Below, in pieces: positions 10,952 to 16,330 of a stretch of 64,000 nucleotides of DNA (position 1 is its first letter; the number at the start of each line of letters is the position of its first letter). The stretch spans positions 3,100,001-3,164,000 of the forward strand of contig NZ_JAPJZI010000001.1 in the NCBI RefSeq assembly GCF_027944115.1. Direction: 5' to 3'. A model generated the notes under the pieces. It saw only the letters and a list, made by a program, of their open reading frames with translations, did no database searches and had not been told where the DNA came from. The translations under genes and the position numbers were made by a program. This stretch comes from Hoeflea prorocentri. GTDB lineage: Bacteria; Pseudomonadota; Alphaproteobacteria; Rhizobiales; Rhizobiaceae.

Positions 10952-11463
10952 CCACATTCACCACCGCGAATGATTGTTCAGAACGCCGGACGGGACAGAC
11001 ACCAAGCAACCCGGGCCTGACACTTCGGTGCCACCGGCCGCTCGTCAATCACAGATTCTTTGTTTGACGAGTCGGCCAAGGTGCCGCCAACGCGCGAAAC
11101 CCACCTTCCCCGGCAGGTCTTGATACAGTTTTTTGCTGCAATAATTTGCATTCAGCCATTTCATCGGAATTCTATACACGTCATCCGAATACCTCTTGAT
11201 AAATACAACCGTGTATAATTCCGTATTAAATCCAAATATTTTGTTCTTTTATCGATTTCGATTCATCCTTTCGAATCAAATAGATTCTCGTGAATCTTTT
11301 TCATTTTTTTCGTCTTCTTTCTGAAAATTATTCACTTTTTACAAGCCATTTTTGCAAGATCTATTTTTTAAATTTGTTGCGCGATTACAACAAAACCACC
11401 TTCTACATAAGTAACAATTGGGATAACATCTTGGTACTAATTCTTTTGTTGGGGTAGCAAAAA
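10952..11463. other. Gene-free AT-rich region before the outer membrane protein
   Basis: No convincing gene is seen in these 512 bases. The first third contains a long RNA-type hairpin (11027-11085). The last 300 bases are strongly AT-rich, with a 7-bp dyad TTTGTTG...CAACAAA (11373-11394) within 100 bases of the omp start. They are a likely regulated promoter and a long leader for the downstream porin-like gene. Confidence 0.6.
11027..11085. other. Long imperfect inverted repeat (candidate structured RNA)
   Basis: The arms GGCCG-CTCGTCAA (11036-11048) and TTGACGAG-T-CGGCC (11064-11077) pair over 13 bases with one bulged T around a 15-base loop. Outside them GGTGCC occurs at both ends and can pair with itself through two G-U wobbles. 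No T tract follows, so it is not a standard terminator. It may be a small RNA, a REP-type element or an mRNA stabiliser. Confidence 0.5.
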
Positions 11464-12717
11464 ATGAGATATGTAATCTCTGGCGTCGCAGGCGCACTTT
11501 TGATGAGCACGCCGGCCATGACGGCCGACGTGGTGGTCGCAGACGCTCCATCCATCGTCTCAGGCGAATCCGTTTACGACTGGAGCGGGTTTTACGTTGG
11601 AGCTGGTGGTGGTTACGGTGCGGTCGTGCACGAACTGAGCTCACCAATTTTTGGTGGCGTCACGTTCAACGGCATCGGCGGCGAAGGTTTCTTCGGCGAA
11701 ATCACTGCCGGTTACGACTTCCAGTTCAGCAACGGCGTTGTCGCCGGGGTGGCGGCTTCCGGCCGGTACGGCAATATCGGCACCTCGCTCGACGTGTTCG
11801 GTCTCAATGCCGATCTGAATGCGGAGTACGGTTTCGACATTGTCGGTCGGCTCGGATACACCGTCGCGCCCAACACGCTGGCCTATGTGCTGGGCGGATA
11901 CACGTGGCAACATTTCGACCTGAGCACAAATTTTGGTTTTGGAACCGACTGGAACTCGGGCGGCTATGTCCTGGGACTGGGCATGGAACACGTGCTCAGA
12001 GGCAAATGGACGCTGAAATCGGAATACCGCTACGCAAAATACAACAGCCAGGACTTCTTTGGCGGCGGACTCTCTGTCGATCCGTCGACCCATACATTCC
12101 ACACGACCCTCAACTACCGCTTCAATGGCGGACCTTCGGGAACGACGGCTTCTCCGGTCAACTATGACTGGACGGGCATCAAGGTGGGTCTCGCAGCCGG
12201 CGGTGGTGCGATTGTTCACGACACCGACCTCTTCGGTAGCATTATCGACTTTGACGGTTTCGGCTCCGAAGGCTTCCTTGGTGATATCAATGTCGGCTAC
12301 GATCGCGAAATCGGCAATGGCTACCTGATTGGTGGCGTGCTGGCCGCTCGCATATCCAATATGGAGCTTGAAACAACGGCTCCCGGTTTCTCCAACAGCC
12401 TGCAGGCGGAATATGGCTTCGATGCTCTGCTGCGCTTCGGTAAACTGTTCAACTCCCGTACGCTCGCTTACGTGATCGGCGGTTATACATATGAGCACTT
12501 CGACTACAGCACGTCCGGTGGAGGTTCGGCTGACTGGAATCTCGGCGGCTATACGCTGGGTACCGGTATGGAAGTCGCGTTTACCGATCGTATCACCGGC
12601 TATACGGAGTACCGTTTCTCGCACTTCGGTTCGGAAGACTTCGGAACCGGTGGGCTTATCGAAATTGGACCGTCCAGCCATACGGTGCGCGTGGGCGCCA
12701 AGTTCAAGCTTTACTGA
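11464..12717 (+). CDS. Two-barrel outer membrane protein, Omp25/RopB family
   Basis: This 417-residue exported protein consists of two complete Omp25-like beta-barrel domains in series. A signal peptide occupies about residues 1-21 (ending PAMTA). Domain 1 spans 38-220, from YDWSGFYVG to the aromatic-terminated TLNYRF. Domain 2 spans 234-417, from YDWTGIKVGL to KFKLY. Matching landmarks occur in both halves: GGEGFFGEITAGYD against GSEGFLGDINVGYD, LNAEYGFD against LQAEYGFD, TLAYVLGGYTWQHFD against TLAYVIGGYTYEHFD. Family members normally have one barrel of about 200-230 residues. Ribosome site GGGG precedes the ATG, and a terminator follows. The role is probably envelope integrity or host or surface interaction. 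Confidence 0.88.
   Translation: MRYVISGVAGALLMSTPAMTADVVVADAPSIVSGESVYDWSGFYVGAGGGYGAVVHELSSPIFGGVTFNGIGGEGFFGEITAGYDFQFSNGVVAGVAASGRYGNIGTSLDVFGLNADLNAEYGFDIVGRLGYTVAPNTLAYVLGGYTWQHFDLSTNFGFGTDWNSGGYVLGLGMEHVLRGKWTLKSEYRYAKYNSQDFFGGGLSVDPSTHTFHTTLNYRFNGGPSGTTASPVNYDWTGIKVGLAAGGGAIVHDTDLFGSIIDFDGFGSEGFLGDINVGYDREIGNGYLIGGVLAARISNMELETTAPGFSNSLQAEYGFDALLRFGKLFNSRTLAYVIGGYTYEHFDYSTSGGGSADWNLGGYTLGTGMEVAFTDRITGYTEYRFSHFGSEDFGTGGLIEIGPSSHTVRVGAKFKLY
11575..12123 (+). repeat. Internal repeat 1, first Omp25-like barrel
   Basis: This stretch encodes residues 38-220 of the outer membrane protein and ends in a beta-signal-like aromatic strand (TLNYRF). It aligns end to end with the second copy at 12163-12714, so the gene arose by intragenic duplication or fusion of two barrel genes. 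Confidence 0.8.
12163..12714 (+). repeat. Internal repeat 2, second Omp25-like barrel
   Basis: This stretch encodes residues 234-417 and ends in the terminal aromatic KFKLY. The linker from repeat 1 is only about 13 residues (NGGPSGTTASPVN), too short for another folded domain. Confidence 0.8.
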
Positions 12718-12746
12718 CGGGGTGACCAATCGTCACCCACTCCAGG

Positions 12747-12773
12747 GGCCGGCGGCACAACCGCCGGCCTTTT
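12747..12773 (+). terminator. Rho-independent terminator after the outer membrane protein gene
   Basis: A 9-bp perfect stem GGCCGGCGG/CCGCCGGCC with a 5-base loop is followed by TTTT. A second hairpin, GGGTGAC...GTCACCC (12720-12738), lies just upstream. The pair ends the omp transcript and separates it from the convergent bfr gene. Confidence 0.85.
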
Positions 12774-12809: not shown

Positions 12810-13295
12810 CTAATCGGCTTCGTCCGCAGAACCCGCGTTGAGCAGACCATATTTTTCTTCGCCGATCGTATTGAGCAATTCGAGCTGTGTCTCAAGAAAA
12901 TCAATATGGCCTTCTTCGTCGGCCGTTAATTCCTCGAAGATGGCCATGGTGACATAATCGCCCTCTTCGCGGCATATCTCGCGTGATTTTATATAGGATG
13001 TGCGGGCGTCATACTCACCGGCAAGATCGGCTTCGAGCACTTCCTTGACATTCTGCCCGATGCGCAGCGGCGCGATCGTTTGAAGATTGGGATGACCTTC
13101 CAGGAAGATGATACGCTCGACCAGCCGGTCGGCATGGTTCATCTCCTCGATGGACTCCTCCCTTTCCTTCTTTGCAAGCTTTGTGTAGCCCCAGTCTTCC
13201 AAAAGGCGGTAATGCAGCCAGTATTGATTAACGGCGCCCAGTTCAAGGAACAGCGCTTCGTTAAGCCGCTCGATTACCTTTTTGTTGCCTTTCAT
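12810..13295 (-). CDS. bfr: Bacterioferritin
   Basis: This 161-residue ferritin-like protein stores iron in a 24-subunit cage. Ferroxidase ligands are visible in [20 protein letters not shown] (Glu18), EEMNHADRL (Glu and His), and [14 protein letters not shown]. Helix B carries the heme-ligand-type Met region in [18 protein letters not shown]. The start is the ATG at 13295 ([15 protein letters not shown]) preceded by GGGAG. It overlaps the bfd coding end by 35 bases, so the two are co-transcribed and probably co-translated. Confidence 0.96.
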
Positions 13296-13572
13296 GAAGA
13301 TCTCCCGCGTAGTGGTTGCGCAACTCAATCAATTTTGCGCGGTAGGAGACCATATCAACGGCAGAAGAGTCAAAGCGGAGATGGAAGGCTTCGCTGGTGC
13401 GAATGATGATATCCACCACATTCGGAAAACAGCGGCAGCATTTGCCCCGTTTTTCCATCGCATGATAGACCTTGGCCGGCACGATAAGCTGCCACCGCTC
13501 CTCATTGAGCATCTCAACGATGACCTGCTCGATCTCGCTTTCGGTGATGATATTGCAATGACAAGCGATCAT
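13261..13572 (-). CDS. bfd: Bacterioferritin-associated [2Fe-2S] ferredoxin, long form
   Basis: This 103-residue protein has the four-cysteine Bfd pattern, CHC at residues 4-6 and CCRC near 45-48, which binds a [2Fe-2S] cluster that reduces ferric iron in the Bfr core for release. Classical Bfd has about 64 residues. Here about 40 residues follow the cluster domain ([20 protein letters not shown]), and the last 11 codons run into bfr. The extension is unexplained. The gene leads the bfd-bfr pair and lies downstream of an Irr-like box. Confidence 0.85.
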
Positions 13573-13698: not shown

Positions 13699-13714
13699 TT
13701 TAGAATTATTCTAA
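13699..13714. promoter_or_regulatory. Irr/ICE-like iron control element
   Basis: TTAGAATTATTCTAA (13700-13714) is a perfect 15-base dyad that matches the TTAGAA-N-TTCTAA-type iron control element bound by Irr in rhizobia and relatives. It lies about 127 bases upstream of bfd and 137 upstream of the glycosyltransferase gene. Iron control of bfd-bfr is the expected reading. Confidence 0.6.
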
Positions 13715-13850
13715 TTTCAAAGTGCTCTCTTTGTCAGTATAAGTTATTGAATCAAGTGCATGACTGTTTCTACCGACCGCTTGACGCAAACGGGAGCAAC
13801 TTTTAAGCCGAACCAGAAACCCATTATTGCTTAAGATCTTGGGGGACATC

Positions 13851-14684
13851 GTGAAGACCTATCTCATCAATCTCGACCGGTCCCCGGACCGGCTGGAATG
13901 GTTCATGCGCTCCACGAAGGACCTTAATCTCGATGTTGTGCGGATTGCCGGCGTTGACGGTTCAGCTCTTGCCGATCGGGAGTTGGAAGACAATAGGCGC
14001 AAACGTCGCCGTCCAGGTGTGACACTAGGCCGGGCCGACATTGGCTGCTTCCTCAGCCACCGGGAGGCATGGCGCCGGGTTGCCGAGGGACAAGACCGTT
14101 GGGCATTTATTGCCGAAGATGACATCCATTTTGCACCCGGGGCGGAGCGCTTTTTTTCATCGGACAATTGGATCCCTGTCGATGCCGACATAATCAAGGC
14201 GGAGACTGTCTTCAATCCGACGCGTATTACCATACGGAATAATCCACGGGCCTTCGGCCACTTACTGAGAAGCCTGCTCTCTTCACATTGGGGTGCCGGC
14301 GGCTACTTTATCAATGCACAATGTGCCGCAAACCTGGTGCGATGGACGGAAGATGTCTGTGACCTGCCGGATAATGTACTGTTTGACGACTCGCTGGAGT
14401 TCTTTTCACGACTGCGAATCTACCAGATCGATCCGGCTATCTGCATTCAGGATAATCTGATCAACAGTACCGGCAAGGTCGGGCTCGGCAGCGTGCGCAT
14501 TGACGCCAACATTGAGGAAGGTGTCACGAAACAACCCGTCAATACGCATAAGAAGCGAACCGTATTCGCAAGCCTGCTGCGGGTGGTCGCACGTCCTTTT
14601 GAGCACGTTTGGCGTCAGAAAAAGCTCCTGATTGCAGGGCAGTGGATCAAGATCATATCCTTCGACAATCAGCGAGCCGGCTGA
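13851..14684 (+). CDS. Family 25 glycosyltransferase, copy 1
   Basis: This 277-residue cytoplasmic protein is of the LPS/LOS glycosyltransferase family 25 type. It opens with VKTYLINLDRSPDRLEWF, carries the acidic catalytic signature AFIAEDDIHFAPGAERFF (EDD) near residue 90, and has SSHWGAGGYFIN and LPDNVLFDDSLEFF further on. Such enzymes add galactose or a similar sugar to lipooligosaccharide or surface glycans. The start is GTG at 13851 behind GGGGGA, matching the paralogue. It is a near copy of the gene at 15110, with divergence concentrated in the C-terminal 40 residues. No other LPS gene is nearby. Confidence 0.85.
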   Translation: MKTYLINLDRSPDRLEWFMRSTKDLNLDVVRIAGVDGSALADRELEDNRRKRRRPGVTLGRADIGCFLSHREAWRRVAEGQDRWAFIAEDDIHFAPGAERFFSSDNWIPVDADIIKAETVFNPTRITIRNNPRAFGHLLRSLLSSHWGAGGYFINAQCAANLVRWTEDVCDLPDNVLFDDSLEFFSRLRIYQIDPAICIQDNLINSTGKVGLGSVRIDANIEEGVTKQPVNTHKKRTVFASLLRVVARPFEHVWRQKKLLIAGQWIKIISFDNQRAG

Positions 14685-15043: not shown

Positions 15044-16330
15044 CTTGACGCTAAGCGGGGTAACTTTTAGGCCAAAGCAACAAGATAGTCGGTATCCATC
15101 GGGGGATTCGTGAAGACATACCTGATAAACCTCGACCGGTCCCCGGACCGGCTTGAATGGTTCATGCGTACAACCCGGAATCTCGGTTTTGATGTTGTCC
15201 GCATTGCCGCTGTCGATGGGATGACCCTCCCGGTCGGGGAAATAGAACACAACAGACGCAAGCGTCGCAGGCCCGAGTTGCCAATCAGCCGGGCGGACAT
15301 TGGATGTTTCCTCAGCCACCGCGAAACGTGGCGCAGGATTGCTGAGGGACAAGATCGCTGGGCTTTCATTGCGGAAGATGACATCCATTTTGCCCACGGA
15401 GCGGAGCGCTTTTTTTCCTCGGATGAGTGGATTCCAGACGATGCCGATGTCGTCAAAGCGGAGACTTTCTTCCGTCCGGTGCGTTGTACCATATGGAACA
15501 ATCCGCGTGCCTTTCGCCACTCCCTGAAGGTCCTTCTGTCCACACATTGGGGTGCGGGCGGTTACTTCATCAATCGAGAATGTGCCAAAAACCTGCTGAA
15601 ATGGACCGAGGACGTCTACGATCTGCCGGATAACATCCTCTTTGACGAAAGGCTGGAGTTTTTCTCCCGTTTGCATGTCTACCAGATCGATCCGGCCATC
15701 TGCGCTCAGGACAATATGATTATCAGCACCAACCAAGTTGGTCTTGGCAGTGTACGGATTGAAGCTAATATTGAGGAAGGTGTCGAGGAACGCCGCACGG
15801 GCACTCAAAGGCAACGCTCACATCTGGGGGAGCTGACGCGCGTAATTGCCCGGCCCTTCGAACACTTTTGGCGTCACAAAAAACTCTTACTGGCGGGACA
15901 ATGGGTCAAGACCATTTCCTTCGGCAACCAGCGAGCCAACTGACCCGATTTCCGGTTTACTTTACTTGAAAGTTGAATCAGTCGGACCTTTACGGCTCGG
16001 CTTTTACGGAGCACATTGCAACGGAAACCTCTGGAAATGCCTTGACGAACGGAAAACAAAAACTCTATCGCGATCTGAAGCAGCGAATTCTGACGCTGGA
16101 ACTGGAGCCGGGTGCGGATCTCGACGAAACTCAGCTCAGCAAGGAATACGGCATCTCGCGCACGCCACTTCGAGATGTTTTTCGCGACCTTGCAGGCGAG
16201 GGTTATCTATCTCTTGAGAGCAATCGTGGAGCGAGTGTTTCGCCGCTTTCTCACACAACGCTACGCGACTTTTTCCTCGCCGCACCGATGATCTATGCGG
16301 CAACGGCCCGACTTGCCGCGCGCAATGCAA
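15044..16330 (+). repeat. Tandem duplication, unit 2
   Basis: This is the second copy of the 1.26-kb unit, from CTTGACGCTAAGCGG through the second glycosyltransferase to about codon 120 of the intact GntR gene. The right edge is approximate because similarity to unit 1 fades there. Confidence 0.75.
15110..15943 (+). CDS. Family 25 glycosyltransferase, copy 2
   Basis: This 277-residue paralogue is collinear with the product at 13851. It keeps VKTYLINLDRSPDRLEWFMR, AFIAEDDIHFAHGAERFF and STHWGAGGYFIN, so both copies look catalytically intact. Differences cluster at residues 50-65 (TLPVGEIEHNRRK) and in the tail (RTGTQRQRSHLGEL). GTG is the start, behind GGGGGATT. Two retained copies may differ in acceptor or simply raise dosage. 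The end is 29 bases before the GntR gene. Confidence 0.85.
   Translation: MKTYLINLDRSPDRLEWFMRTTRNLGFDVVRIAAVDGMTLPVGEIEHNRRKRRRPELPISRADIGCFLSHRETWRRIAEGQDRWAFIAEDDIHFAHGAERFFSSDEWIPDDADVVKAETFFRPVRCTIWNNPRAFRHSLKVLLSTHWGAGGYFINRECAKNLLKWTEDVYDLPDNILFDERLEFFSRLHVYQIDPAICAQDNMIISTNQVGLGSVRIEANIEEGVEERRTGTQRQRSHLGELTRVIARPFEHFWRHKKLLLAGQWVKTISFGNQRAN

Follow-up and report, generated by a model that had tools for sequence, protein, structure and literature searches.

Organization of the gene and its protein

The DNA analyzed here (the window) is a stretch of 64,000 nucleotides that covers positions 3,100,001 to 3,164,000 of contig 1 in the 5.04 Mb genome of Hoeflea prorocentri. It carries an open reading frame whose product is predicted to consist of a signal peptide and two β-barrels joined by a short linker, together with a palindrome upstream and a terminator-like hairpin downstream (Table 1). 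The region holds four terminator-like sites, compared with 3.5 in shuffled sequences, and the stem of the hairpin behind this gene is by far the longest of the four.

Table 1. Features of the two-barrel gene and its surroundings, with positions given in the window and residues numbered in the encoded protein
Feature	Position	Strand	Description
Promoter-like site	11338-11367		
Palindrome	11375..11392	+	TGTTGC-N6-GCAACA with one mismatch, some 90 nt ahead of the ATG
Open reading frame	11464-12717	+	417 amino acids from an ATG, no internal stop
Predicted signal peptide	11464..11526	+	Residues 1-21 (MRYVISGVAGALLMSTPAMTA); read by eye from a charged start, a hydrophobic core and small residues before the mature end
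Barrel 1	11575..12123	+	Residues 38-220, eight predicted strands; PF13505 stretch 37-220, AlphaFold strands, PagP superposition
Linker	12124..12162	+	Residues 221-233 (NGGPSGTTASPVN), between the aligned halves
Barrel 2	12163..12714	+	Residues 234-417, eight predicted strands, β-signal-like end VRVGAKFKLY; alignment of the halves, AlphaFold, OmpA superposition
Terminator-like hairpin	12744..12772	+	12 pairs, shortly 3' of the gene
Ferritin-family (bacterioferritin-like) gene and small bfd-like gene	12810-13572	-	Convergent with the two-barrel gene
Irr/ICE-like palindrome	13699-13715		TTTAGAATTATTCTAAT, upstream of the bfd-like gene
Glycosyltransferase family 25 gene	13827-14684	+	
Glycosyltransferase family 25 gene	15110-15943	+	

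The Pfam model PF13505 (OMP_b-brl) matches the whole protein in two stretches with 69.2 bits (curated cut-off 28.7). When the stretches are scored singly, the N-terminal one exceeds the cut-off with 52.6 bits and the C-terminal one falls just below it with 27.8 bits. We take PF13505 to be the superfamily that holds the Omp25/RopB-like proteins. The label "Omp25-type" given in a preliminary description of the sequence can be kept as far as this match goes; NCBIfam models give it no support, since none matches the protein at E values up to 1.

In a single comparison, the two halves of the protein share 79 of 185 aligned columns (43%) with 4 gaps and an E value of 4e-46, as expected from the earlier statement that they align throughout. 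The aromatic-terminated strands that had been noticed at the end of each half are indeed present: barrel 1 ends in ...LNYRF (F220) and barrel 2 in ...KFKLY (Y417). The gap between F220 and Y234 is 13 residues, the length that had been given for the linker. At the DNA level, only a single 42-nt direct repeat (71%) is left between the halves. This indicates that the duplication is old and diverged, and that it is not an assembly repeat.

The linker is rich in Gly, Ser, Thr and Pro, and nothing else of the mature chain lies between the two barrels. A short segment of this kind would suit a precursor from which cleavage in the linker releases two single-barrel proteins. We consider such processing improbable, because the linker has no signal-peptide-like stretch, its length is conserved, and no common cleavage motif was noticed among the linkers of the listed chains.

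Predicted structure

The chain was modeled twice with AlphaFold, structure prediction having been proposed as a check on the architecture, and both models contain 8 + 8 strands. The first model was built from seven alignment rows, all of them two-barrel proteins, and has eight long strands per half (pLDDT 75.9, pTM 0.64). The second was built from 30 rows, 23 single-barrel rows having been added, and has the same strands (pLDDT 86.8, pTM 0.72). According to a trial alignment, the single-barrel rows fall on the N half and could favor its closure; the seven-row model is free of this bias, yet less confident. Short predicted strands are also found outside the barrels, at model residues 14-17 (before barrel 1) and 203-208 (the first part of the linker).

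Each half was then compared with known structures by using VIA-align. The C half (model 212-396, corresponding to protein residues 233-417) superimposes on OmpA over 170 residues, with Z 14.1 and rmsd 2.5 Å in the first model and Z 19.4 and rmsd 2.4 Å in the second. Matches of the N half are weaker, with best rows at Z 7.8-10.3. In the first model these are the NMR structures of OmpA (Z 7.9) and OmpX (Z 7.8), whereas in the second model the N half (model 22-197) superimposes on PagP over 133 residues with Z 10.1-10.3 (rmsd 3.6 Å at Z 10.3). Full-length matches found by Foldseek, which include FadL and porins, reach a TM of about 0.2-0.33 with rmsd values mostly of 12-20 Å. A viral structure library gave general barrel matches only, and a sequence search of solved structures for relatives yielded one chance-level hit.

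The preliminary description had offered two arrangements: two barrels formed side by side by one chain, or a single barrel of 16 strands. The half-by-half matches to 8-strand barrels, taken together with the poor full-length matches, favor the first arrangement; the second would not be expected to give them. Neither half appears unable to form a barrel, as each modeled half resembles a closed 8-strand barrel. The predicted strands do total 16, and joint closure of the halves has been proposed as an evolutionary route on the model of an artificial duplication of OmpX, whose product is called a pore with function in the title of its report (Arnold et al. 2007). However, full-length TM values to larger barrels are about 0.3, 13 residues are many for a periplasmic turn, and each half retains a complete single-barrel start (YDW) and end (NYRF or KFKL). 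A single 16-strand barrel finds no support in the two predicted models or in the structure searches and appears improbable. The engineered protein is likewise a tandem copy of an 8-strand barrel; judged by its title it forms a pore, whereas the natural protein is predicted to form two separate barrels.

The homologous halves, the strand counts and the matches of each half predict that the chain contains two complete barrel domains, as in multi-barrel outer-membrane proteins. With two predicted barrels per chain, the protein differs from the Omp25/RopB family proper, whose members have a single 8-strand barrel. The pTM values of 0.64-0.72 leave the relative placement of the two barrels uncertain.

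Our preferred explanation, which we hold to be probable, is that the gene encodes an outer-membrane protein derived from an 8-strand PF13505 barrel that was duplicated within the chain, and that the product forms two closed barrels side by side. Proteins of this kind are made with a signal peptide, exported by Sec, transferred with the help of chaperones and inserted into the outer membrane by BAM. The chain described here would take the same path, with BAM inserting it as two adjacent closed barrels. Because the strand numbers are even, all four barrel ends should lie on the periplasmic side, where a 13-residue linker could join them and where it would stay. One consequence would be the supply of two barrels in a fixed 1:1 ratio. 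By analogy, the protein would most likely act like its single-barrel relatives, in envelope stability and with surface loops, and would form no wide pore.

Conservation and distribution

Relatives of the protein were sought at four taxonomic levels. All eight genomes of the genus match at E values up to 1e-30, as do 38 of the 394 family genomes, which represent 15 of 109 genera; the other 356 family genomes have no match at this threshold. As listed, 36 of the 38 keep a frame open for 410 amino acids or more, the exceptions being G566 (370 amino acids) and G594 (288 amino acids), both of which have a stop. Over a wider range and with looser thresholds, the order has matches in 16 of 297 genomes (E up to 1e-20) and the class in three of 385 drawn genomes (E up to 1e-15); several of these have a single barrel only. 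The nearest named relatives, at 64% identity, are from Hoeflea poritis and Nitratireductor sp. XY-223. The genome of H. prorocentri itself contains nine PF13505 stretches in all, including further single-barrel genes. It also has a second full-length two-barrel gene (C1:958989) with 47% identity to the first. Among the loci retrieved, 39 of 43 chains have a linker of 11-12 residues as measured between HMM envelopes; a frame-broken copy is counted among the 43.

The gene is real and conserved. An assembly duplication or gene-prediction artifact, which had been raised as a reason to doubt the architecture, is practically excluded by the second copy in the same genome and by the recurrence of this architecture in all eight genomes of the genus and in many further genomes, some of them single-contig assemblies (G136, G328 and G413). 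The 43% identity of the halves argues against it as well.

Two-barrel genes are sometimes clustered. Four lie in a row in G642 (C102:1787750-1793392; L115, L134, L138 and L139), so that eight barrels are encoded by the array, and two are adjacent in each of G378 and G670. In G566 (C3, L125/L137), a stop or a shift of frame interrupts one copy of the two-barrel gene.

History of the duplication

Two trees of barrel sequences were constructed. A quick tree of 130 halves included 45 of 130 available single barrels, which were taken by score and hence are mostly from Bradyrhizobium. In this tree, all N halves of the Hoeflea family form one clade and all C halves form another. The 63 rows of a more careful tree were picked by hand so as to bring in nearer single barrels; they comprise 24 single barrels, 17 two-barrel chains, a single half from each of two partial chains, and a three-barrel protein (L070). 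Here the family's N halves (support 100/98), C halves (98/91) and the two groups together (94/92) were recovered as clades. The halves group within their own lineage in f20 (L095-L097), in L140 (a genome of the same class, from outside the listing of its order) and in the triple protein L070.

The presence of separate N and C clades indicates that the duplication predates the sampled genera of the family and was then inherited. As judged from these sequences, the family has one old duplication that was passed down vertically. The groups submitted to the AU test were chosen with the tree already in view. The test gave p 4e-8 for a single clade of all N halves, p 0.01 for the family plus f20, and p 0.125 for a single clade uniting the two-barrel halves of every lineage. 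The first two values reject the idea that all two-barrel lineages go back to one duplication whose N and C halves descended without a break. The simplest reading is that the other two-barrel lineages and the three-barrel lineage arose by separate duplications. Given the p value of 0.125, a single origin followed by homogenization of the halves within lineages is also possible.

The three-barrel protein is encoded in a Xanthobacteraceae bin (L070:4851-7076, forward strand) by a frame of 742 amino acids, and its PF13505-like barrels are mutually 43-55% identical. Several Bradyrhizobium loci (e.g. L009, L017 and L018) have three to five single-barrel genes in tandem, and such arrays are possible raw material for fused barrels.

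The constant linker length, the long vertical inheritance of both halves and the copying of whole two-barrel units in gene arrays (four adjacent in G642) could mean that the barrels pack into a fixed superstructure, namely a covalent dimer whose barrels share a surface or a binding site, that performs a task beyond either barrel alone. This idea is compatible with our preferred explanation and refines it. We hold it only tentatively, as the pTM values leave the placement unsettled and most family genomes (356 of 394) have no match at the threshold used.

Different ends of the two barrels

The C-terminal ends of the barrels were scored for the pattern G-x-x-[hydrophobic]-x-[hydrophobic], which we take to be the β-signal consensus. 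The sample comprised 37 two-barrel chains of the family, that is, 38 scripted chains less the broken copy L137. The end of barrel 2 carries the glycine pattern in all 37, of which 31 were scored by script and six (L002, L008, the second gene of L110, L126, L128 and L129) by eye where the script window slipped or failed. In contrast, the end of barrel 1 has kept the glycine in only 12 of the 37. The glycine is present in every barrel of L070, L095-L097 and L140. For single-barrel relatives, a rough script counted it in 44 of 135, although it often set the position wrongly.

Since the rows share ancestry and single barrels are not uniform either, the difference between barrels 1 and 2 is suggestive and no proof. 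Judged from these barrel ends, a canonical β-signal may have become dispensable for the inner barrel. It is also conceivable, if rather doubtful, that the barrels divide the labor of assembly: only the C-terminal barrel would keep the β-signal glycine, and with it the one signal by which the chain enters BAM, whereas the signal of the inner barrel would be decaying and this barrel would fold as a passenger of the outer one. If so, the family would be a natural system for studying how BAM folds two barrels of one chain.

Relation to known multi-barrel proteins

Combinations with 8-strand barrels reportedly prevail among multi-barrel outer-membrane proteins and are said to have arisen by independent, lineage-specific events, which would cover the protein described here. 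A published analysis (Solan et al. 2021, PNAS, doi 10.1073/pnas.2104059118), as recounted in PMC8592465, suggests that many outer-membrane families hold several barrels, and its multi-barrel class likewise has more than one complete barrel in one chain. Such chains are a published kind, cited in PMC8592465, PMC9603273 and PMC11494523. These papers discuss GfcD and YjbH of Escherichia coli, each of which, like the Hoeflea protein, has two predicted barrels in a single chain. Limited proteolysis of GfcD is reported to give two stable 30-kDa fragments. For GfcD, 12 + 13 strands are predicted, the halves differ from each other and a domain lies in the middle, whereas the protein studied here has homologous 8-strand halves joined by 13 residues.

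RopB of Rhizobium is discussed in PMC9650718 and PMC9927233 as an OmpA-like barrel with a probable function in outer-membrane stability. RopB and Omp25 of Rhizobiales have one barrel per chain rather than two. No title on this family was found in the open-licence literature among papers on tandem or fused barrels or on RopB, Omp25 or Omp31.

The novelty implied by the preliminary description is therefore weaker than it seemed, since multi-barrel chains have been published and this architecture recurs in the family. The protein is a new or unlisted member of the multi-barrel class and has a particularly simple form. It adds a clean, conserved and symmetric 8 + 8 case, one that combines old vertical inheritance in one family with apparently separate duplications elsewhere, including a three-barreled one. 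Its short, homologous and equal-sized halves offer a tractable test of the barrel-assembly machine acting on two barrels per chain, and of what results when a barrel of eight strands is doubled, a pore or a pair of closed barrels.

Upstream palindrome and neighboring genes

The palindrome upstream of the two-barrel gene sits just after a promoter-like site. With at most two mismatches, it precedes 16 of the 37 multi-barrel genes, compared with a mean of 0.52 in shuffled sequences, and it also stands before some single-barrel genes (L091, L093 and L094). A regulon-motif test found nine sites genome-wide, which is no more than control level (eight for the reversed pattern), and one in the window, which is below the 3.0 expected by chance. 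When its variants are read by eye as an RNA hairpin, both a compensatory change and broken pairs occur. The palindrome may be an operator or a hairpin at the 5' end of the mRNA.

Downstream lie a ferritin-family gene and a bfd-like gene, the latter named by eye and having no Pfam match. Both are kept as neighbors in nine of 37 loci, where flanks were mostly about 1.5 kb and misses are not firm. The Irr/ICE-like palindrome near them has one mismatch to what we take to be the consensus; two such matches occur in the window (0.59 expected). An iron-related role of the two-barrel gene was considered but is not favored, because these neighbors are found in only nine of 37 loci, the genes are convergent and form no operon with it, and the Irr-like box is upstream of the bfd-like gene. 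Farther downstream, the two neighboring glycosyltransferase family 25 genes look alike by eye and are probably a tandem duplication.
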